Positions 2,493 to 28,874 of a stretch of DNA of 28,874 bases are shown in pieces. The DNA is from a virus. Where the stretch lies: positions 1 to 28,874 of IMG/VR virus record IMGVR_UViG_3300037502_001663. One strand, 5' to 3'. The notes below the pieces were generated by a model, which saw only the letters and a list, made by a program, of their open reading frames with translations, had not been told where the DNA came from and did no database searches. The position numbers were made by a program, and so were the translations under genes. Position 1 is the stretch's first letter. Each line of letters opens with the position of its first letter.

Positions 2493-2647
2493 TTCTTCTT
2501 GCTCTTACCGGCTTCACTCAAAGCAATAGCCATCGCCTGCTTCTTCGACTTAACGACCGGACCCTTCTTCGATCCGCTGTGTAGCTTGCCTTCGGCGTAT
2601 TCGCCCATGACCTTGCTGATTTTCTTGTCAGCTTTCGACTTCTTCAT
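2489..2647 (-). CDS. Small basic phage protein, DUF6496-like
   Basis: A 52-aa Lys-rich ORF starting at ATG 2647 behind a strong GGAGG site seven bases upstream. The sequence runs MKKSKADKKISKVMGEYAEG ... LHSGSKKGPVV ... QAMAIALSEAGKSKKK, the pattern I know from the short DUF6496 proteins found in many phages and bacteria. Function is unknown; the high charge suggests nucleic-acid or capsid contact, which is inference. It overlaps the end of the glycosyltransferase gene by 20 bases and its TGA overlaps the GTG start of the methyltransferase gene, so it is an embedded member of the same operon. Confidence 0.8.
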   Translation of the reverse strand: MKKSKADKKISKVMGEYAEGKLHSGSKKGPVVKSKKQAMAIALSEAGKSKKK

Positions 2648-3323
2648 TTAGCGCCTCCATCTTTTGCGCTGCCTCTGCCACGTCTTGCGGCTCGTCTGGC
2701 CGGCACTCAACCGCATGATCGTGCGTGAACTCCATCGTGCCGATATGCTTCACGTCTTTCGACAAATCATGGTCGATGTAGACCTTGAAGCCGTTAGCCT
2801 GTGCGAGCTTGCAAAAATAAATATCCTCGCCCACCCACACATTGCCTGACGGAAGCCACGCCAAATTGAACCAAGGCAGCGGGCATTTCCGAAACACGTC
2901 CATCTTGATAAGCATGCAGCCCATACCGACTGCATCGACTTCTTCCAGCCCTGTGCTTTCGCTGTCCGTGTAGATGCACTCGAGATTTGCAAAGTCACGG
3001 AAAGCAACAGTCTTCACAGGGATGCGGCGTGTCGCATAGTTCGCCGCAACGATGTCCTTGTCGTGCTTTTGCAGCTTCCAGAACGTGTTTGCCGGAAACC
3101 GCATGTCAGCATCGAGAAACAACACATAATCAAAATCAGCGGCAAACGCCTTGCGAACCAAGTTCTGCCGCTGATCTGCGATGAGCGTGCCGCTCAATAT
3201 GTTGATGTTGAACGTGCCGCCTTGCGGAAGACCTGCATAGATGTTGGCTGTCAACATCGCCAAGTCTTTCGCAAAGCCAGAACACACCGTCTCCCGCGCC
3301 GGTATGCAAATGGCGACCTTCAC
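2628..3323 (-). CDS. GT-A fold glycosyltransferase (family 2-like)
   Basis: A 231-aa protein. N-terminal MKVAICIPAR is the usual beta strand of GT2 enzymes. The metal/nucleotide-sugar DxD motif is LFLDADMRF (DAD at 71-73), and GEDIYF (165-170) fits the acceptor-side 'ED' motif. A late His (DHDLSKDVKHIG, 185-193) could complete the metal site. Such enzymes move a sugar from a nucleotide donor to a protein, DNA base or glycan. There is no membrane segment, so it should be soluble. The start is GTG (3323), three bases after the stop of the upstream Cys-rich gene, with GAGGG as the likely ribosome site. Its position in the head operon next to a small-molecule methyltransferase is unusual and suggests a virion or host-surface modification pair. 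The acceptor is unknown. Confidence 0.8.
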   Translation of the reverse strand: MKVAICIPARETVCSGFAKDLAMLTANIYAGLPQGGTFNINILSGTLIADQRQNLVRKAFAADFDYVLFLDADMRFPANTFWKLQKHDKDIVAANYATRRIPVKTVAFRDFANLECIYTDSESTGLEEVDAVGMGCMLIKMDVFRKCPLPWFNLAWLPSGNVWVGEDIYFCKLAQANGFKVYIDHDLSKDVKHIGTMEFTHDHAVECRPDEPQDVAEAAQKMEALNEEVES

Positions 3324-7217: not shown

Positions 7218-7383
7218 CCAGATGGTCCGTCTCTACACCCGGCGGGCTTCCCGTGCGTGACCATTGCATCAGCACGCTCCAAAGTCCATGCGTCGGGCCA
7301 AGGTCCGCCGCGTAAGTCCATCCGTTCGCTGCGTATTCGGGAACGTCAGCATGTCTGACGTATCGGAACCAGCTAACGGACAT
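7033..7383 (-). CDS. Small phage protein with WFRY motif, 3' half overlapping
   Basis: The N-terminal 45-50 residues (MSVSWFRYVRHADVPEYAAN, ...GWTYAADLGPTHGLWSVLMQW) resemble short phage proteins with the pattern 'WFR(Y/F)VR..DV..Y...GW.....LG..HG..S.LM.W', whose function is unknown to me. The ATG at 7383 lies inside the last codons of the DNA methyltransferase gene (11-base overlap). The frame stays open for 116 codons, but the last 61 lie over the metallophosphoesterase start in another frame and look low in character (charged, Gly/Asp rich). So the 5' half is well supported and the 3' half is an overprint. Confidence 0.6.
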   Translation of the reverse strand: MSVSWFRYVRHADVPEYAANGWTYAADLGPTHGLWSVLMQWSRTGSPPGVETDHLDAAAADTESSCRRDGQCFGEGVAGGASEERCDPADGEEVERQHGDDLHAPASGRTDRAVTS

Positions 7384-8422
7384 CGAACAAATCAGCGTTC
7401 GCTGCCTTCTCGTCCTTAAAACGCTCCATCCGTGCGTATATGTCACCGATATACGTTTCGTCCTGCTCAATCCCAATCACGCGAAAACCTTCTTGAACGG
7501 CAGCTTGCAAGGTCGTGCCGCTGCCAGCAAACGGGTCAAGCACAGTCCCGCCCTTTGGCGTCACTAACCTCACCAAATACGCCATCAACGCAATCGGCTT
7601 GACAGTCGGATGCTTCGACCCGGCGCGATCAGCCTTGGAGGCTTTGGGGCAATAGAAAAAACGAGCCGCGCTGCCGCTGTCGCCAAAACGCATAGCAGGC
7701 CCACCAACCCAAAACATGCCGGACTTCCCGCCATGCGTTCCTTCGTCCGCACTGCGCGCCCGACCTGCCCCATGCGGTGACGGAAAACCCGCCAACACCT
7801 CATCACTGCCGTCATGGATCAGATTAGCGGGCCAGCGACCAAGCGCAGATGAACCGACTTCCCTGCCTGCAAAATCGCCATAGGCATTTTTCGCCATCTT
7901 GCTTGAAGACCAGCTTCCAGCGCCACCTAATCGGGGGTCATCAACGCTTGGGTCTGTTGGGATGCGCGATGCGTCGATATTTAGCGCCCCAGTGCCATGC
8001 GTCAGCACATTCTCCGCAACCGTGCCAATCAGCGGCTTACGCGCAACGCATATCGGCTCATGCGCTGGTTTTAGCGCCGTTCCCCATCCTTGCCATTCGC
8101 CGTCTAGGTTCTTCGACTTCGGAAAGCCGGAGCCATAAACCCACATGATCTGATCGCGGATTTCAAAGCCAGCATCTTCAATGGCGACCGTCATCCTGTG
8201 ATACGTCCGGCTCCCGCTGAACGCCAGCAAATGCCCGCCCGGTTTTAGAACGCGCAACGCCTCGCGCCACAGATCAACGTCATAGGCAATTCCAGACGCA
8301 TCCCATGACTTACCCATAAACCCTAGCTCATAGGGCGGGTCAGTCACGATTGCGTCGATTGAGGCGTCAGCCAGATCGCGCAGCTTCTCCCGGCAGTCCC
8401 CATGCAACACTTCCCACTGCAT
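7373..8422 (-). CDS. DNA methyltransferase with DPPY motif (probable N6-adenine)
   Basis: A 349-aa amino-methyltransferase. Catalytic motif IV is DPPY (28-31) and SAM motif I is DPFAGSGTT (FAGSGTT at 298-304), so the order is catalytic first and SAM second, the beta class. 'KHPTVKP' before motif I is typical for this class. DPPY usually goes with N6-adenine methylation. No restriction enzyme is nearby, so protection of phage DNA against host restriction is the likely role. The insert between the motifs probably carries target recognition. ATG 8422 shares a base with the TGA of the small terminase (TGATG) and follows GGAGAG. It sits between the two terminase genes. Confidence 0.9.
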   Translation of the reverse strand: MQWEVLHGDCREKLRDLADASIDAIVTDPPYELGFMGKSWDASGIAYDVDLWREALRVLKPGGHLLAFSGSRTYHRMTVAIEDAGFEIRDQIMWVYGSGFPKSKNLDGEWQGWGTALKPAHEPICVARKPLIGTVAENVLTHGTGALNIDASRIPTDPSVDDPRLGGAGSWSSSKMAKNAYGDFAGREVGSSALGRWPANLIHDGSDEVLAGFPSPHGAGRARSADEGTHGGKSGMFWVGGPAMRFGDSGSAARFFYCPKASKADRAGSKHPTVKPIALMAYLVRLVTPKGGTVLDPFAGSGTTLQAAVQEGFRVIGIEQDETYIGDIYARMERFKDEKAANADLFDVR

Positions 8423-9123
8423 CACTTCTCTCCATTTTTATTTTTTAATTTTTTGGCGGGGCGTCGTTTAGGCTTGCCGGGGGGTGGGGGGTCTGACGGT
8501 TTTTCGTCCGTAGACGTAGAAGGGTGCGCCGCCAGCGCCGCCCCTCCCCCATCGGGGGAGCCGGGGGGGGCTGCGGCATCGACAGCCAGCGGGACCGCCT
8601 CGATCGCCGGCATCGACGCACCCGACCTTTCACCTGAAAAGGTTGGATCGCTAGTAATATCAATGGCTTGTGCGTCGATATACCCGAGATCGTTACCCGA
8701 TCGACGTGCAGACAGCGCACGCAGCGCATCGAGATGCAGCTGATGTGTGTGCGTGACGTTCGCTTCGACGATCTGCTTATCGCCATAAACCTTTGGCAAC
8801 AAACGAGAAGCCGTCCACTTCATTGCGTCGATGGCAACGCGAGCTGCGTCTGGTGGAACCTGACCGCTGATAACCTGTTGAGATAATTGAGCAATTTCGT
8901 CTGCGTGGTTCAACGCTCGCTGCTGGATCGCGCGCGCGTAGCGGTGCTCAAATACCGCGTCTTCGCTGATCCAACGCCATACGAAACCGAATGAAGGCAT
9001 GTCGTCGTCATTGCAGATGCTCTTTACCGATCTGCCTTCTGCGATGCGCTGACAGATTTCTTCCATGAGTTCGGGCGACTTGATTGACGGACGACCTACC
9101 TTCTTCGTCTCAACTTCGCTCAC
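8422..9123 (-). CDS. terS: Terminase small subunit-like protein
   Basis: A 233-aa protein. The N-terminus VGRPSIKSPELMEEICQRIA and ...GRSVKSICNDDDMPSFGFVWRW... is the helix-turn-helix found in small terminases that recognise pac/cos DNA. F..RYARAIQQRALNHADEI and WTASRLLPKVYGDK complete the family pattern. The C-terminal 60 residues are Pro/Ala/Lys-rich and disordered, with poly-Pro encoded by G-runs at 8458-8575, ending in a Lys-rich tail that may contact the large subunit. The start is GTG 9123, which overlaps the upstream TGA (GTGA) behind GAGGAAA; this is better than the TTG at 9156. Confidence 0.85.
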   Translation of the reverse strand: MSEVETKKVGRPSIKSPELMEEICQRIAEGRSVKSICNDDDMPSFGFVWRWISEDAVFEHRYARAIQQRALNHADEIAQLSQQVISGQVPPDAARVAIDAMKWTASRLLPKVYGDKQIVEANVTHTHQLHLDALRALSARRSGNDLGYIDAQAIDITSDPTFSGERSGASMPAIEAVPLAVDAAAPPGSPDGGGAALAAHPSTSTDEKPSDPPPPGKPKRRPAKKLKNKNGEK

Positions 9124-13700: not shown

Positions 13701-13915
13701 CGCTCGACCTCGACAAGCACGTCAGCGCCGACAGCCTCGAGAAGCCGCAATGCTGTGTCTAGGTGGATGCCGCCACCATTGTTCTTCACGAACCAATAAG
13801 CTCCATGCGACAGGCCAGCATCGGCGCACAGCTTTCGCTGCGATAGGCCCTGCCTGACGCGCTCTTTCTCGATGAACCGAACGATGTCTTCGGCTGACTG
13901 AATTTCGATGGTCAT
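13697..13915 (-). CDS. XRE-family helix-turn-helix regulator
   Basis: A 72-aa protein from ATG 13915, which overlaps the TGA of the methyltransferase gene (ATGA); the longer upstream reading frame is only overlap. The helix-turn-helix is ERVRQGLSQRKLCADAGLSH ...YWFVKNNGGG, followed by DTALRLLEAVGADVLVEVE, the common Cro/C1-type layout. The body is nearly all HTH, so it probably acts as a dimeric DNA-binding regulator of the replication operon it sits in. Its operator is not known; the repeated element ahead of this operon (14809-14831) is a candidate. Confidence 0.8.
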   Translation of the reverse strand: MTIEIQSAEDIVRFIEKERVRQGLSQRKLCADAGLSHGAYWFVKNNGGGIHLDTALRLLEAVGADVLVEVER

Positions 13916-14772
13916 GCAGTTACCTCCACCTCGGCCAGAAGCGGCACACCGCCGTAAATGCGCTGTCTGGCTATCTCTGCATATTCGGGATTGAGTTCGC
14001 ACAGGACGGCGTTGCGTCCGTGCATGGCAGCGACCATCCCTGTTGTTCCAGAACCGCCGAACGGGTCAAGGACAGTGCCGCCGATGGGGCATCCGGCAAG
14101 GATGCAGGGTTCGATTAGGTCTGGCGGATAGACCGCGAAGTGAGCGCCCCTGAACGGCTTTGTCGTGACAGTCCAAACGCTGCGGCGGTTTCGCTTTCCA
14201 TCAAATTCACGCATGCCAATCGGGCGCGTATGAACCTGATCCGTAGCCAGCAATGTCTCGTTCTTTTTTCCGCCAAAAGCTGATTTGTATCTTGCCGCGC
14301 TGCCTTGCGGGTCGGCACTTTCCTCGCGCATCGCCTCGCTGTCGAAGTAATACCTTTCCGACTTGGCCAGCAGGAAAATGTATTCATGCGCCTTCGTGCA
14401 GCGATCACGCACGCTCTCAGGCATCGGGTTCGGCTTGTGCCAAATGATGTCTTGCCGCAGATACCAGCCGTCAGCTTGCAAGGCCAAGGCAACACGCCAC
14501 GGGATGCCAACAAGCTGTTTTGATGCGCCGTAACTATCGCCAAGGTTCAGCCATAACGTGCCGTCATCACGCAGGACACGACGCACTTCACGGAACACAG
14601 CGACCATCTCAGCCACAAAATCGTCTGGCGTCTGCTCAAGGCCAATCTGCCCATCGACGCCGTAATCGCGCAGCCCGAAGTAAGGCGGCGACGTAACGCA
14701 GCAATGAACAGAAGCATCAGGCATTGCCTTCAAAAGCTCCCGGCAGTCTCCAACTTGAATTGACACTGACAA
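13912..14772 (-). CDS. DNA methyltransferase with SPPY motif (N4-cytosine or N6-adenine)
   Basis: A 286-aa beta-class amino-methyltransferase. Catalytic motif IV is TSPPYFGLRDYG (SPPY at 28-31), and SAM motif I is DPFGGSGTT (FGGSGTT at 238-244). SPPY is more usual in N4-cytosine enzymes but also occurs in some adenine enzymes. It is the first gene after the promoter/operator element at 14809-14852, so it leads the replication operon. The start is probably TTG 14772, nine bases after GGGAGG; a GTG at 14766 is the alternative. No partner endonuclease is present, so self-protection or regulation by methylation is likely. Confidence 0.88.
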   Translation of the reverse strand: MSVSIQVGDCRELLKAMPDASVHCCVTSPPYFGLRDYGVDGQIGLEQTPDDFVAEMVAVFREVRRVLRDDGTLWLNLGDSYGASKQLVGIPWRVALALQADGWYLRQDIIWHKPNPMPESVRDRCTKAHEYIFLLAKSERYYFDSEAMREESADPQGSAARYKSAFGGKKNETLLATDQVHTRPIGMREFDGKRNRRSVWTVTTKPFRGAHFAVYPPDLIEPCILAGCPIGGTVLDPFGGSGTTGMVAAMHGRNAVLCELNPEYAEIARQRIYGGVPLLAEVEVTA

Positions 14773-17589: not shown

Positions 17590-17828
17590 TCTCCCTCCCC
17601 AAGCGCGGCGCGGGCTTTATTGATCCGCGATCTCAACGCAGACGGGTCGGCCATCAATCCATCCTCCATTTGCGTTAGCAAATAAAGGGCATGCGGCAAA
17701 AGTAATTCCACAGCCTCACGCAGCCGCTCTATTTCGTCGGCTGCTGCCCAATACATTGTTTCGTTTGCCGGAAGCAGATATTCATTTTCTTCCGCTGATT
17801 GCCGAAGTTCTTTAACAATGTCGTCCAT
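17586..17828 (-). CDS. Duplicated small protein, copy B
   Basis: 80 aa from ATG 17828 behind GGAGGAG; it overlaps the end of the dCMP deaminase gene by 17 bases. Residues 3-37 equal those of copy A. After this it continues EAVELLLPHALYLLTQMEDG and ends SRINKARAALGEGE, the same ending encoded by the 15-base repeat at 17601-17615. The long helical middle suggests a small oligomer. Function unknown. Confidence 0.75.
   Translation of the reverse strand: MDDIVKELRQSAEENEYLLPANETMYWAAADEIERLREAVELLLPHALYLLTQMEDGLMADPSALRSRINKARAALGEGE
17718..17823 (-). repeat. 106-bp coding direct repeat, copy B
   Basis: This is the partner of 17330-17435, lying 388 bases away in the same orientation. The 50-aa membrane gene and the differing 3' parts lie between. 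Confidence 0.95.
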
Positions 17829-18264
17829 GTTCTCCTCCCTGCACATCTTCGACTTCTAGCTCGACGCCAGCCTCCTTCATCATCTGACGCGCGACGACAA
17901 AGTTCTCGTATTCCATATTCGTCAGACCGGGACCGCACACGATCTTGCTGACGCCGGCATTGATGAGCATCCGTGTGCAGTTGGCGCAGCACAGATGCGT
18001 GACATAAACCGTCGCACCGTGAAGCGTTTGCCTCGCCGCATGTGCGACGAGGTTTTCTTCAGCGTGTGCAGTCCAGAGATATTTGCCGGGTCGCTGCATG
18101 CGGCACGGCTGGTCATCGACGCCTCGAGGCAGACCGTTGTAACCCGTCGATAGGACGGCGCGTGATGTCGGATCGACAGCCACAGCACCGACCTTCGTAG
18201 ACGGGTCTTTCGACCAGCCTGCAACATGCGCCGCAAGATCAAGGAAGCGTTGATGCCACTTCAT
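17812..18264 (-). CDS. dCMP deaminase (cytidine/deoxycytidylate deaminase family)
   Basis: A 150-aa zinc deaminase. The active-site helix TAHAEENLVAHAA has HAE at 67-69 (zinc His and proton-shuttle Glu), and THLCCANCTRML gives the CxxC zinc ligands (93 and 96). WSKDPSTKVGAVAV and STGYNGLPRGV near the start are typical of the dCMP deaminase branch, which makes dUMP for dTTP synthesis. The usual Pro before the first zinc Cys is replaced by Cys 92, which should be tolerated. ATG 18264 overlaps the upstream TGA (ATGA). Confidence 0.92.
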   Translation of the reverse strand: MKWHQRFLDLAAHVAGWSKDPSTKVGAVAVDPTSRAVLSTGYNGLPRGVDDQPCRMQRPGKYLWTAHAEENLVAHAARQTLHGATVYVTHLCCANCTRMLINAGVSKIVCGPGLTNMEYENFVVARQMMKEAGVELEVEDVQGGEHGRHC

Positions 18265-20834: not shown

Positions 20835-20868
20835 GAATTATTTTCAAGAGGATGGCCCGAAATGGGGT

Positions 20869-20910
20869 GGGGGCGTTCTGTCGGGAGGAGAGGAGATACA
20901 GAACGCCCCC
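20869..20910. other. Perfect 13-bp hairpin with purine-rich loop
   Basis: GGGGGCGTTCTGT (20869-20881) and ACAGAACGCCCCC (20898-20910) pair without mismatch around a 16-base loop, CGGGAGGAGAGGAGAT. No U-run follows on either side, so it is not a usual terminator. It lies between the early-operon operator and the integrase promoter and could be a structured RNA, a protein-binding site or part of the att region. Confidence 0.7.
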
Positions 20911-20970
20911 GGCGTCGGGAGGACGCGCCAACGGGGAGCATGGCTCTACCCGTCAGGGGAAGATGCCATA

Positions 20971-20987
20971 TGTGCGCGTGTCGCACA
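20971..20987. promoter_or_regulatory. 17-bp palindrome TGTGCG-N5-CGCACA
   Basis: A perfect 6-bp inverted repeat around CGTGT, six bases before the integrase promoter element. Its size is that of an HTH-dimer operator, but its sequence differs from the TTGCGTCTAG element, so it may bind a second regulator. Confidence 0.5.
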
Positions 20988-20993
20988 ATCTAC

Positions 20994-21022
20994 TTGCGTC
21001 TAGCACACAAGGCGACTATTGT
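20994..21022 (+). promoter_or_regulatory. Integrase promoter with operator (copy 3 of 3)
   Basis: TTGCGTCTAG-CACA-CAAGGCG (20994-21014) repeats the element of the two minus-strand operons with three differences in 21 bases. TTGCGT (20994-20999), a 17-base spacer and TATTGT (21017-21022) give a reasonable sigma-70 promoter pointing at the integrase 26 bases on. Confidence 0.65.
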
Positions 21023-21047
21023 TCGGGGTAACGGGAAGGAGAAACCC

Positions 21048-22124
21048 ATGAACGTGACCCTGTTTGAACGTAGCCCCGGCGTCTGGCGCATCCGCATCGA
21101 GACCAAGGAAAACGGTAAGCGGAAGTTCCGCACCGAGACGCTAAAAGGCACTGCGCTTGATGCCGAAGCCCGCAAGATCGAAATCCTGAAAGATCACCGC
21201 TCTGGCGATCTCGTCCACATCACGGACGACACCGTGAAGCAGCACTGGACGAAATGGCAGAACCGCCGTGTCGCCCTCAACCAGATCAGCGAGCTGACCT
21301 TCCAGAGCCAAGAAAACCTCATCAAGCCGTTTCTTGCCGACTACGGATCACGCCGCCTGCGCGACATCACGAAGGACGACATCGAGGACTTCTACCTGAC
21401 CCGCATCCGCAAGGTTGCTGCCGGGACGATGACGATCACGCATCACCATCTCAAAGCCATGTTCAATCAGGCTGTGACAGCCGGCGTCCTGACCAAGAAC
21501 CCGATGAAGCGGGTCTCCGCTCCCAAAGGCGACAGCGAGGCGCGTAAGCCTCTTGAAAAGAGACACATCAAGGCGCTGCTTGCTTACGCAGCAGACAAGC
21601 CGTTCCTTGGCCGCATGGTCCGTCTGGCTCTTGCCACAGGCATGCGTCGTGGCGAGATGTGCGCCCTGCGCTGGTCCGACATCGACATCGAGACCGGCAT
21701 CATCCATGTCGCCAGAACGGTTGTTCGCGTCGGCGCGAGCGAATACGAGAAGAAGCCAAAGACGGCGAAGTCGATCCGCTCAATCCGCATGCCGAAGTCC
21801 CTATGGGACGAGCTGAAGGCGGCAGCTGGCAAGCCAGACAAGCACGTCCTTCAGACCGTTTGGGGCGATCGTCCGACGCTCTCTTACATGACCAGCGCCA
21901 TGAAAGACGCCCTGCGTGCGATCGGCCTCGACGAAGGCTATTGCCTGCACTCCACCCGCCACGCTCATGCCACACATCTGCTGCGCGAGAAGATGCCGCT
22001 GAAGGCTGTCTCAGAACGCCTCGGCCATGCCAACGTCGAGGTGACGATGACCGTCTATGCCGGCGTCCTGACAGGCGACGATCAGGAGCTTGCCGACAGC
22101 ATGGACCGCATCGTGAACGGGTAA
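21048..22124 (+). CDS. int: Tyrosine recombinase / phage integrase
   Basis: 358 aa from ATG 21048, which has GGAAGGAG just upstream; the open frame to 20862 crosses the promoter and is not used. Residues 60-155 form the core-binding SAM-like domain. The catalytic domain shows Arg 200 (LATGMRRGE), a Lys in KPKTAKSIR (near 241), HSTRH (His 301, Arg 304), His 327 (RLGHANVEVT) and nucleophile Tyr 337 (TVYAGV). All active-site residues are present. The short N-terminus probably binds arm-type sites. It is convergent with the late operon and shares the operator found in the two other lysis/lysogeny operons. Confidence 0.95.
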   Translation: MNVTLFERSPGVWRIRIETKENGKRKFRTETLKGTALDAEARKIEILKDHRSGDLVHITDDTVKQHWTKWQNRRVALNQISELTFQSQENLIKPFLADYGSRRLRDITKDDIEDFYLTRIRKVAAGTMTITHHHLKAMFNQAVTAGVLTKNPMKRVSAPKGDSEARKPLEKRHIKALLAYAADKPFLGRMVRLALATGMRRGEMCALRWSDIDIETGIIHVARTVVRVGASEYEKKPKTAKSIRSIRMPKSLWDELKAAAGKPDKHVLQTVWGDRPTLSYMTSAMKDALRAIGLDEGYCLHSTRHAHATHLLREKMPLKAVSERLGHANVEVTMTVYAGVLTGDDQELADSMDRIVNG

Positions 22125-25768: not shown

Positions 25769-26280
25769 TATTTACCTCCGCCGAATATCCCGCCGAACAT
25801 GCTTTGCAGCAAGCCGGGTTGAGGCGGACCGTAGCCGCCAGTTGAAGCGTCAGGAGCAACCGGACCTTGCGGCATCGGGCCATCAAGAAGACCGCGTGTG
25901 TAAAAGTCGTTCACCATCTGCCCGTCTACGTTAATGAGCCGAGAACGCACTTTTGACAAGTCACCGCCAGCGAACTGATCTGCGTATGCCTGTGCGCCCG
26001 GACCAGCATCACCTAAGCCCCGTGTGTAGCCTTCCACGTTCCAAGCCGCAGGCATCGGAGGCCCTTGCATTTCAAGCGGACCTTGGACCGGCATTGAGCC
26101 GGGAGCAGGACCGACAGCGCGTGCAGGACCGGGAAGCGGCGGCAGCTGTGCCTGTGGATTTGCAAACGCCGGGATGTTCGGGATCGTCTGACCCTGCACG
26201 CCTGTAACGGCAGAAGAAAGACCGCCGAGACGCTGCCCTTGCTGCATACGGTTCTGGCGAATGATGTCGAGAATGTTCAT
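25768..26280 (-). CDS. Pro/Gly-rich virion-associated protein
   Basis: A 170-aa protein. A short N-terminal helix (MNILDIIRQNRMQQGQRLGG) is followed by a long Pro/Gly/Gln-rich, likely disordered part (LPPLPGPARAVGPAPGSMPV) and a Gly-rich end (LLQSMFGGIFGGGK). ATG 26280 overlaps the upstream TGA (ATGA). A minor structural or linker protein of the ejection set is likely; no family recognised. Confidence 0.6.
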   Translation of the reverse strand: MNILDIIRQNRMQQGQRLGGLSSAVTGVQGQTIPNIPAFANPQAQLPPLPGPARAVGPAPGSMPVQGPLEMQGPPMPAAWNVEGYTRGLGDAGPGAQAYADQFAGGDLSKVRSRLINVDGQMVNDFYTRGLLDGPMPQGPVAPDASTGGYGPPQPGLLQSMFGGIFGGGK

Positions 26281-27074
26281 CCGAGAAGCCCTCTCATTTT
26301 AGGAAGCGGGCGAAACTGACCGCGATTTATTTGCATTTGCGGCATCCGCTCTTCCTCTTCTGGCTGCTGCGCCAGCTTTGCGAGCTGAAGCAAACCGCTG
26401 GCAATGCCGGCAGCACCCTTCGACATATCGGCACGCTGCGCCATGTCGATCTTCTGTTGCGCCGCCTGTTCTGTCGTCAAAGGCGTAGGAGCATCGACAA
26501 GGCTTGGCGCGATCGTGTTACCAAGCCAGCGAGCTGCCGTGCCAAGGTCTGCTGAATAGACAGGCTTTTGAGGCGTAGCCGCAGCAGGTGCAGACGCGGC
26601 AGCAGGAGCTTGTGCCGCAGCCGTGTCTACAGCCGTTCCATCAAGAAGATTGATGCCTTGAGCGATCGAACCGACCTTTGCGGAATAGTTAGGGTCTGTC
26701 GCATAGCCAGACTTTTGCAACTCTGCGAGTTGTGCATCCAAGCCTTGCGCCTGACGCAAGCCTGAATATCGCTTGTTCTCATTGATGAACTTCGCATAGT
26801 CGGCAGCACTGTCAGCCATCGAGCCATACTGGCGAAAGCTGTCTGCTGTGCGATACATGCCGCCGTCGCCATATTCGCTTGTGGCAAGCGTCTGACCGCC
26901 AGAACGTCCATGCGACTTGATGCCGAAATAGTTTTGACCGGGCGCACTTTTGCCGTAACCGCTTTCAATCGCAGCTTGAGCAATGATGATGCGCGGATCG
27001 ACGCCCGTAGCGCGAGAAGCCTCAAGCGCATAAGGCGTCATCTGTTGAACAAAACGTCTGCGGAAGTCTTCCAT
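26277..27074 (-). CDS. Glucosaminidase-type virion-associated peptidoglycan hydrolase
   Basis: A 265-aa protein. Residues 8-140 match the FlgJ/GH73 glucosaminidase fold: DPRIIIAQAAIESGYGKSA with catalytic Glu 37, NYFGIKSHGRSGG, and SFRQYGSMADSAADYAKFIN. It lacks a signal peptide, and it sits among virion proteins, so it probably cuts the cell wall during DNA entry rather than at lysis. The C-terminus is an Ala/Pro linker followed by a charged tail (EEEERMPQMQINRGQFRPLP). ATG 27074 overlaps the upstream TGA (TGATG). Confidence 0.85.
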   Translation of the reverse strand: MEDFRRRFVQQMTPYALEASRATGVDPRIIIAQAAIESGYGKSAPGQNYFGIKSHGRSGGQTLATSEYGDGGMYRTADSFRQYGSMADSAADYAKFINENKRYSGLRQAQGLDAQLAELQKSGYATDPNYSAKVGSIAQGINLLDGTAVDTAAAQAPAAASAPAAATPQKPVYSADLGTAARWLGNTIAPSLVDAPTPLTTEQAAQQKIDMAQRADMSKGAAGIASGLLQLAKLAQQPEEEERMPQMQINRGQFRPLPKMRGLLG

Positions 27075-27760
27075 CAGATCACCTCATGCCACTGCTGGCG
27101 AATAGCATCACCGATCAATCCGAGACGCCGCTTCACTTCAGCTTTACGCTCTTCCGGCAAATTCTCAATCCGCACCTTGTTCTCATCGAGATACGCCGTG
27201 CAGTCCCAACAGTCACGCCCTGTCTTTTCACCAAGGTTGTAACCGGGCGGGAAGTCAGCGTTCATCTCGTCGAGATAATCGAACACATGTTCGGTCGTCC
27301 AGTTCTCGATCGGATGAACGACTTGGATGCCATTTACGATGTCGCCGTTGCGAAACTGCGACTTGCGCTTGTCCTCAAGACGAGTGCCGCGAATGATGCG
27401 TTCGACGCCCATCTGCATCATTGCGTTGTGCAGCGGATACCAAATGTTTGCAGCACAGCACGACAGATAAGGCTGGATCAACGGACCATCGTTCTCCGTG
27501 ATCGACTTGCCTGCTGTCGTGTTGTTAATCGGAACAACATCAGCCGGCCATCCGAACTCTGCGATGTTTGCAGGCTGGTTCGCTTTAATCTCAATAAAAT
27601 TAGGGAGACGTGATTTCCACATCTCCATGTATTCCTCCATCTCTGGATAGGCCGCACCAGAGTTGAGCCACACGACAGGCAGCGTCTCCCACTGGTCACG
27701 GAACAGGTAAAGACAGGCCAAGCTGTCTTTACCGCCAGAGAATTGAAGGACTGTCTTCAT
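27074..27760 (-). CDS. PAPS reductase-like PP-loop protein with Fe-S-type Cys pairs
   Basis: A 228-aa protein. QFSGGKDSLACL (7-18) is the PP-loop that binds the adenylyl group. CC at 101-102 and CWDC (184-187) are 81 residues apart, close to the CC-x~80-CxxC motif that holds a [4Fe-4S] cluster in APS reductases. The C-terminal ECG(L/I)H catalytic motif of true reductases is missing; the protein ends soon after RRLGLIG. It is probably an ATP-using sulfur-transfer or adenylylating enzyme like DndC/TtcA-type relatives rather than a sulfate-assimilation enzyme. It is embedded in the late operon with overlaps on both sides (TGATG, TAATG). Confidence 0.8.
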   Translation of the reverse strand: MKTVLQFSGGKDSLACLYLFRDQWETLPVVWLNSGAAYPEMEEYMEMWKSRLPNFIEIKANQPANIAEFGWPADVVPINNTTAGKSITENDGPLIQPYLSCCAANIWYPLHNAMMQMGVERIIRGTRLEDKRKSQFRNGDIVNGIQVVHPIENWTTEHVFDYLDEMNADFPPGYNLGEKTGRDCWDCTAYLDENKVRIENLPEERKAEVKRRLGLIGDAIRQQWHEVI

Positions 27761-28650
27761 TAGAAGATCGTTGCCAGAGAAGCGCCGATCGAAGCAACCG
27801 TGCCAGCAGCTCCGAGACCAGTCATCAGAGCATTACCGCCGCCGCCAGTTCTTGTCTGCGTCTGCGTGCTTCCGTAAGGCGTTGCCGATGTTGCGCCGAG
27901 ACGCAGATTGAGCATTTCGATCGGATAGTTCCGTTGCTCAAGATAACGGTTATAAGCGTCATCAAGCTGCGCTTGCTGCATGGCCTGACGTTGTGCGCCA
28001 ATACCTTCGAGGCCCGCATAATCCATATAACGAGCTTGCTGACGTTGCTGTGCAAGGTTCGCCAGCTGGCTGCCTGCCGATAAACGAAGCTGCTGCGCTT
28101 GTGCTGCGCGTGCTTGATCTGCACCGAACTGTTGTGCAGCTTCGTTGAAGGCTTGAGACCGCAGCTGTGCAGAAAGATCACCAATGCCGCGTGAACCTTC
28201 AGCTGCCGCCACACCTTCTGCAATACCTTGGCGAGAACCGCCAAACGCTCGAGCCGCAGCAGCCTGATCTCCGATGCGAGACATATTCGCGCGCAGAGCG
28301 CGGTTCGCGTTGTCGATAGCTCGAGTTTCTACGTTCTCAACATACGGGTTCATGTAACCCTGAATGTTTGCGTTTAAGAAGCTCGTCGGCGTGTATCCGG
28401 CAACTCCTCGCGTGATGTCTGAAGCCTGCCCATACTGGCCCATTTCAGAGCCGTAGCCGCTTAAAATCTCCGAAAACGCACGTTCTTGCTCTGGAGAAAA
28501 TCCTGCGACTGTTTGACCACCATAAGCCTGATACGGTCGCTTAGATATTTCGTCAGCGATCGCAAGGTTTTCTTTTGTTACGCCTTCAAGCCAAGCAGGA
28601 AGCTCAGTCTTGTTCGTAACTGTTTGCGTCTTTCCGCCACCGCCGCCCAT
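27760..28650 (-). CDS. Virion internal/tail-associated protein
   Basis: A 296-aa protein with a Gly-rich start (MGGGGGKTQTVTNKTELPAW), which I know from a group of phage structural proteins, then long Ala/Gln-rich helices (ARAAQAQQLRLSAGSQLANL). The C-terminal end is a hydrophobic Gly/Ala segment (GLGAAGTVASIGASLATIF) that could insert in a membrane. This suggests an ejection protein. ATG 28650 overlaps the upstream TAA (TAATG). Function from context and composition only. Confidence 0.65.
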   Translation of the reverse strand: MGGGGGKTQTVTNKTELPAWLEGVTKENLAIADEISKRPYQAYGGQTVAGFSPEQERAFSEILSGYGSEMGQYGQASDITRGVAGYTPTSFLNANIQGYMNPYVENVETRAIDNANRALRANMSRIGDQAAAARAFGGSRQGIAEGVAAAEGSRGIGDLSAQLRSQAFNEAAQQFGADQARAAQAQQLRLSAGSQLANLAQQRQQARYMDYAGLEGIGAQRQAMQQAQLDDAYNRYLEQRNYPIEMLNLRLGATSATPYGSTQTQTRTGGGGNALMTGLGAAGTVASIGASLATIF

Positions 28651-28874
28651 TATTCGTCCCTCTTTCTAGGGTGATACTCCATCACGATCATTGTTTTCTT
28701 CCAGCCTTTAGCCTTCAGAAACTTCTCGTAACCGGGCCTGACCAAAGCCCTTCCAAACTCTGCCCCCATCTCTTCGTGACCCCATTTTTGAACCTTCTCA
28801 AGAAGTTCAAGAACGGCATCAAGCTCGCCGGCTGACATAACGCCGTGGATATATCGCTTTTGGGGAGCATCAAC
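28650..28874 (-). CDS. Hypothetical phage protein (partial at right edge)
   Basis: The frame is open from the right edge to the TAA at 28650, at least 74 residues. The ATG at 28838 has no ribosome site, so the gene probably begins outside the window. The visible part is charged and helical (ELDAVLELLEKVQKWGHEEM) and ends with basic residues (EYHPRKRDE). No family recognised. It is the first visible gene of the late operon. Confidence 0.6.
   Translation of the reverse strand, partial: VDAPQKRYIHGVMSAGELDAVLELLEKVQKWGHEEMGAEFGRALVRPGYEKFLKAKGWKKTMIVMEYHPRKRDE

Follow-up and report, generated by a model that had tools for sequence, protein, structure and literature searches.

Viral genes labelled cysH are among the most often reported auxiliary metabolic genes and have been taken to mean that viruses drive sulfur cycling, with 167 cysH genes reported in one paper (PMC10914622) and cysH as the most frequent sediment gene in another (PMC9301287). 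A CysH-like protein can also occur without the catalytic cysteine. This has been described for CasCysH of type IV-B CRISPR systems, which has the PP-motif SGGxDS and was proposed to act as an ATP alpha-hydrolase (PMC8175902). In phages, the closest described genes are the "PAPS reductase" genes of the Bcep22-like Burkholderia phages (BcepIL02 gp67, JC1 gp65, and those of DC1, CSP3 and BcepMigl), which have been published only as metabolic moron genes for sulfate reduction.

The protein studied here belongs to the same family as these Bcep22-like proteins, whose genes likewise lie between those of two virion proteins and which have the same four cysteines and PP-loop, as checked on BcepIL02. 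Judged by its published description, CasCysH is closest in logic to this phage family, since a PP-motif without the catalytic cysteine is present in both. However, CasCysH is part of a type IV-B csf/CRISPR operon, whereas the phage gene has virion, ejection and lysis genes as neighbors. Four predicted Fe-S cysteines and a methyltransferase partner are features of the phage family beyond the CasCysH description. In the open-access literature searched, the phage family was found only under "PAPS reductase" annotations, with no non-reductase description, no remark on the missing cysteine and no link to a methyltransferase. A Thermus phage paper does mention a possible role of such phage proteins outside sulfur metabolism (PMC11437467).

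The window protein and its relatives

The window, i.e., the whole stretch of DNA that was analyzed, is a fragment of 28,874 bases that constitutes an IMG/VR virus record. The open reading frame of interest starts with ATG and encodes a protein of 228 amino acids, with the following features:

27074..27760, minus strand: PP-loop / CysH-like protein of the [4Fe-4S] type (PF01507; AlphaFold2 pLDDT 93.6; purifying selection)
27722..27739, minus strand: intact PP-loop SGGKDS, residues 8-13 (S8, G9, G10, D12 and S13 invariant in 36 relatives)
27455..27460, minus strand: Cys101-Cys102, predicted Fe-S ligands (invariant in 36 relatives; placed by hhalign on the CC of APS reductases)
27200..27211, minus strand: Cys184-Trp-Asp-Cys187, predicted Fe-S ligands (invariant; aligned with CEPC of APS reductases)
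27074..27199, minus strand: C-terminal part, which lacks the catalytic motif ECGxH (missing in relatives too, present in host CysH)

The Pfam model PF01507 (PAPS_reduct) matches the window protein with 52.6 bits at a cut-off of 22.5. The two cysteine pairs are separated by 81 residues. No ECGxH was found in the protein, and its C-terminal helix (residues 203-227) contains no cysteine. The protein is acidic, with a predicted pI of 5.0, and carries no added nucleic-acid-binding domain.

The same arrangement is found throughout the family. Of 96 collected relatives (80 distinct), with identities down to 28%, 95 combine SGG[KR]DS and CC-X75..90-CxxC with the lack of ECGxH; the single exception, locus L099, is a PP-loop protein that is only distantly related. 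The four cysteines and S-G-G-x-D-S are invariant across 36 diverse relatives. Because of this invariance and the retention in 95 of the 96 proteins, the motifs in the window protein are not due to chance. An earlier sequence-only reading had interpreted SGGKDS plus CC-X81-CxxC as the pattern of the [4Fe-4S] sulfonucleotide family and had pointed out the missing ECGxH tail. Both descriptions are borne out by the residues, with CC and CxxC matching the APS-reductase ligands in hhalign. No group of ECGxH-bearing homologs that includes the window protein emerged, and the cysteine pairs are not lost in its closest relatives. The dN/dS values between close pairs (0.08-0.22) indicate strong purifying selection on the family.

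In IMG/VR, 283 candidate loci encode a relative, of which 80 were kept, and the close ones are 55-91% identical to the window protein. GTDB genomes gave only 13 loci, including L099, which is outside the family proper. Named phages with a relative are ctyzp037 (58% in the alignment), the Bcep22-like Burkholderia phages (37% identity) and Aeromonas phage phiA008. In L099 and in L202 (871-2202, minus strand), from a Crocinitomicaceae genome bin, a domain that appears ParB-like by eye is fused to another PP-loop protein, which has a CxxC but no CC.

Comparison with reductases and thiolating enzymes

As yardsticks, we used the PF01507 proteins of the genomes that carry relatives and those of E. 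coli K-12. In the true APS/PAPS reductases among them the PP-loop is eroded and the C-terminal end is ECGLH or ECGIH, the reverse of what is seen in the phage family. The fold, the PF01507 domain and ligand positions of the APS-reductase type are common to both. By hhalign, the Fe-S ligands of APS reductase coincide with the CC and CxxC of the phage family, so the predicted cluster site is shared with these enzymes but the catalytic tail is not. The NCBI reductase models missed the window protein, with scores of 26.8 bits versus a cut-off of 165.1 for cysH (TIGR00434) and 20.3 versus 235.3 for APS_reductase (TIGR02055). In a maximum-likelihood tree, the phage family forms one side of a branch with 100/100 support and the reductases do likewise with 99/98. 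The phage clade is apart from APS/PAPS reductases, CysD and DndC, with the branches deeper than the family weakly supported (87/83). The motif GxRRxE/Q..R of CysH, CysD and DndC is changed to G[QTV][RK]xxD in the phage family, in which Asp130 is invariant. Since the phage clade is separate from the APS/PAPS reductases, the label "PAPS reductase" for the relatives in Burkholderia phages is probably wrong.

The sequence-only reading had suggested comparing a predicted structure with APS reductase, DndC and TtcA. The nearest solved folds to the AlphaFold2 model (pLDDT 93.6) were CysH and APS reductase, with a Foldseek TM of about 0.57. They were followed by ATP sulfurylase, FAD synthase, NcsA, YcfA and TtuA. 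A BFVD model with 56% sequence identity to the window protein is labelled CysH, which shows the current annotation habit for this family.

A link to DndC and phosphorothioation, also raised from the sequence alone, had to be given up. The window protein resembles DndC as a PP-loop protein with a predicted [4Fe-4S] site and with a CxxC that is followed by Thr. However, the DndC model TIGR03183 scored only 13.1 bits against a cut-off of 290.4, and the DndC cysteine set is missing, as found in a by-eye comparison with three DndC proteins above the cut-off and one DndC-like protein. DndC itself has a single cysteine in WCTDRLK, additional ECPV and SCGxSRFGCxxC elements, and about twice the size. 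Its partners are DndD, DndE and a desulfurase. Searches of 18 carrier records, several of which are incomplete, gave neither DndD nor a cysteine desulfurase (Aminotran_5), and no APS kinase either. As these 18 records yielded no cysteine desulfurase, a phage-encoded sulfur donor was rejected, and any sulfur would have to come from the host.

TtcA, NcsA and TtuA are larger, tRNA-binding enzymes. They resemble the phage family in combining an intact PP-loop (SGGxDS) with an Fe-S cluster, which is predicted in the phage proteins. TtcA aligned with the window protein at an hhalign probability of 86%, and NcsA and TtuA were found by Foldseek. These similarities are at the level of the fold only, and the four cysteines of the phage family are arranged differently from the cysteines of these enzymes.

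The PP-loop fold is also shared with QueC and the QueC-like Cap9. The profile similarity to Cap9 is weak (E 1.4e-6), as it is to QueC, and is confined to the region around residues 138-190. The window protein had no match to the QueC family PF06508 (Pfam at E 0.01 gave only PF01507) and contains no CxxCxxC zinc motif. With similarity that is weak and partial, kinship to QueC or Cap9 was rejected.

Position in the ejection-protein operon

The PP-loop gene is flanked by the following genes:

27760..28650, minus strand: DNA-ejection / internal virion protein, upstream gene (phrog_4287, E 1.5e-29; same neighbor in most IMG/VR relatives)
26277..27074, minus strand: glucosaminidase-type peptidoglycan hydrolase, downstream gene (PF01832, 102 bits; PHROG endolysin)
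28650..28874, minus strand: cluster c4, a short gene preceding the ejection gene and truncated by the window end, conserved in the operon (at position -2 in 64 relatives)

These assignments agree with the placement between a lysin and a virion protein given by the sequence-only reading. The stop codon of the ejection gene overlaps the PP-loop start in TAATG, and the PP-loop stop overlaps the hydrolase start in TGATG, with one base shared in each case. From these overlaps we infer coupled translation at both junctions; a Shine-Dalgarno-like GAGGTGA of its own is present for the hydrolase gene as well.

Most IMG/VR relatives lie in a gene series that begins with a virion structural (stabilization-type) protein, runs through a 76-aa gene and one of about 120 aa to the ejection protein and the PP-loop gene, and often continues with a peptidoglycan hydrolase. 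In the Bcep22-like phages and in plasmid prophages, the order is a GNAT acyltransferase, a virion protein, the PP-loop protein, another gene and a giant DarB/PLxRFG/LPD38-type protein. GNAT genes two positions upstream of the PP-loop gene were seen in L007 (10535-10969), L273 (2171-2596) and L274 (2619-3062). Giant LPD38/PLxRFG proteins, like the DarB-like protein of the Bcep22-like phages, are encoded downstream in the plasmid prophages L273 (6346-8666) and L274 (7649-8579). The cluster c4 gene looks GNAT-like by eye only and was rejected as a GNAT, since hhalign against the Bcep22-like GNAT found nothing.

To avoid counting carriers alone, the ejection protein was searched independently. Among its close relatives, 11 neighborhoods contain the PP-loop gene and 12 lack it; for distant relatives the numbers are 0 and 38. 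The sample leans toward carriers because the query alignment was built from them. The PP-loop gene is thus an accessory insertion in the ejection-protein operon. The virion proteome of JC1 lists products from both flanks but not the PP-loop homolog (PMC9144972). Thus, of the earlier description as lying inside the virion operon, the location among virion genes stands, and a role as virion component was rejected, the JC1 homolog being undetected in purified virions.

Other genes in the window include a predicted Anp1-like glycosyltransferase (2628-3323, minus strand; PF03452, 32.1 bits); the virion region of ctyzp037 has an annotated glycosyltransferase too. By eye, two proteins read as DNA methyltransferases (7373-8425 and 13912-14772, both minus strand) and one as a deoxycytidylate deaminase (17812-18264, minus strand). 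A tyrosine-recombinase-like integrase, also recognized by eye, is encoded on the opposite strand (20862-22124, plus strand), which suggests that the phage is temperate.

Methyltransferase partner and proposed function

A class I SAM methyltransferase recurs as the partner of the PP-loop protein. Like the accessory status of the gene, this partner is not visible in the window itself. In a Comamonas prophage (L094, 7311-8699) the PP-loop domain is fused behind such a methyltransferase, and in two other prophages a methyltransferase of this type is encoded by the gene next to the PP-loop gene. Fusions with the methyltransferase ahead of the PP-loop domain, or adjoining genes on either side, were also seen in L231, L221, L226 and others. 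A search of IMG/VR with the methyltransferase alone gave 26 strong matches (over 140 bits), of which 12 are fused to a PP-loop domain, 11 are adjacent to one on either side and 3 are cut by the contig end. Linkage is thus found in all 23 informative loci, which are loci and not independent events, as some are near-copies and the query was taken from PP-linked loci. Weaker matches are unlinked to a PP-loop gene, except for three with a remote, partial match. The CWDC signature of the window protein's own group is present in one of the methyltransferase-linked PP-loop proteins (L233). The majority of the window protein's close relatives have no adjacent methyltransferase. The model of the methyltransferase (pLDDT 92.3) resembles geranyl diphosphate C-methyltransferase, AtmM, RebM and MitM, which suggests an enzyme of the small-molecule type.

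We propose, with moderate confidence, that the window protein is a phage-specific N-type (PP-loop) ATP pyrophosphatase on a CysH fold, with [4Fe-4S] ligands of the APS-reductase type but without the catalytic tail, and that it serves as an ATP-dependent activating or sulfur-transferring tailoring enzyme late in podovirus infection. It is probably an uncharacterized ATP-driven modification enzyme made at that stage. The protein would bind ATP at the PP-loop and adenylate its substrate on a carbonyl or phosphate group. The [4Fe-4S] cluster predicted on the four cysteines may bind host sulfide or persulfide, as in TtcA, NcsA/TtuA and DndC, or hold the substrate. The outcome would be a sulfurated or otherwise activated product, which in many phages the partner methyltransferase would then methylate. 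By analogy, sulfur transfer is the likeliest chemistry, with simple activation or ligation as a less likely option. Counting against this explanation are the change in the GxRRxE..R motif of the known members, the missing desulfurase in the 18 carrier records, the weak deeper branches of the tree, and the fact that an adjacent methyltransferase is lacking in most of the close relatives.

Alternative functions differ in how well they account for these observations. A genuine APS/PAPS reductase, i.e., a cysH auxiliary metabolic gene by which assimilatory sulfate reduction is raised during infection, would fit the Pfam and PHROG labels, the nearest folds, the common Fe-S ligands and the naming of relatives as PAPS reductase in the literature (PMC9144972, PMC10269572). 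We rejected this assignment and regard it as very improbable because the catalytic cysteine is missing in 95 of 96 relatives, the PP-loop is intact rather than eroded, the clade is separate, the reductase models score far below their cut-offs, and the carriers gave no APS kinase. Thiolation of phage or host nucleic acid (as phosphorothioate DNA or as a thio-base of DNA or tRNA) might protect packaged DNA or shield it against a host defense. Its late timing would resemble that of Mom of phage Mu. DndC, TtcA and NcsA/TtuA are all built with a PP-loop and a [4Fe-4S] site, the folds of NcsA and TtuA are among the matches, the operon is late, and the tree places DndC on the same side, if weakly (87/83). 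DndC membership fails, however, on model score, cysteine set and DndD partner, and a cysteine desulfurase is missing from the 18 records as well. The lack of a nucleic-acid-binding domain, the acidic character of the protein and a methyltransferase of the small-molecule type also speak against it, so that thiolation of nucleic acids is possible but rather unlikely.

In several phage groups with differing ejection proteins, the gene keeps its place immediately behind that of an ejection or internal virion protein, which would agree with modification of a virion protein, such as the upstream ejection protein, before packaging. The reaction could be an adenylation or ligation like the nucleobase-protein conjugation that involves Cap9, to which the profile similarity mentioned above extends. 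Yet close relatives without the gene keep the same ejection protein family, so such a modification would be optional; Pfam gave no QueC match, and the fixed order may simply be inherited operon order. We therefore consider this improbable. The same accessory distribution, 11 carriers against 12 non-carriers nearby and 0 against 38 further away, would suit a neutral passenger or moron at an insertion hotspot with no role in phage growth. This is hardly credible for a gene with dN/dS values of 0.08-0.22, catalytic residues invariant over large divergence, viral copies in the hundreds (283) and a recurring link to a single family of methyltransferases.

For the proposed tailoring enzyme, which would act late in infection and be neither a virion component nor an enzyme of sulfate assimilation, the acidic pI and the small-molecule-type partner make us lean toward a small molecule or a nucleotide as substrate; bulk DNA is a less likely product than a nucleotide, a cofactor or a small molecule. 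More tentatively, we suggest a hitherto undescribed two-enzyme phage pathway that would yield a modified small molecule or nucleotide in late podovirus infection. It would consist of a sulfur-inserting or activating PP-loop [4Fe-4S] enzyme and a SAM methyltransferase dedicated to it, either fused or encoded next to it, sometimes with a GNAT two genes upstream. Some of the viral "cysH" genes reported for sulfate assimilation might belong to this pathway. The GNAT of the Bcep22-like phages and plasmid prophages is possibly a third enzyme of this pathway.

The recurrent fusion to one methyltransferase family offers a concrete handle on the chemistry of the PP-loop protein. The family would also be caught by the same Pfam model as cysH. 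Because a residue that the canonical reaction requires is missing from it, some of the genes counted as viral cysH may be miscounted. Looking for ECGxH together with an eroded PP-loop would be a simple way to sort viral cysH calls.
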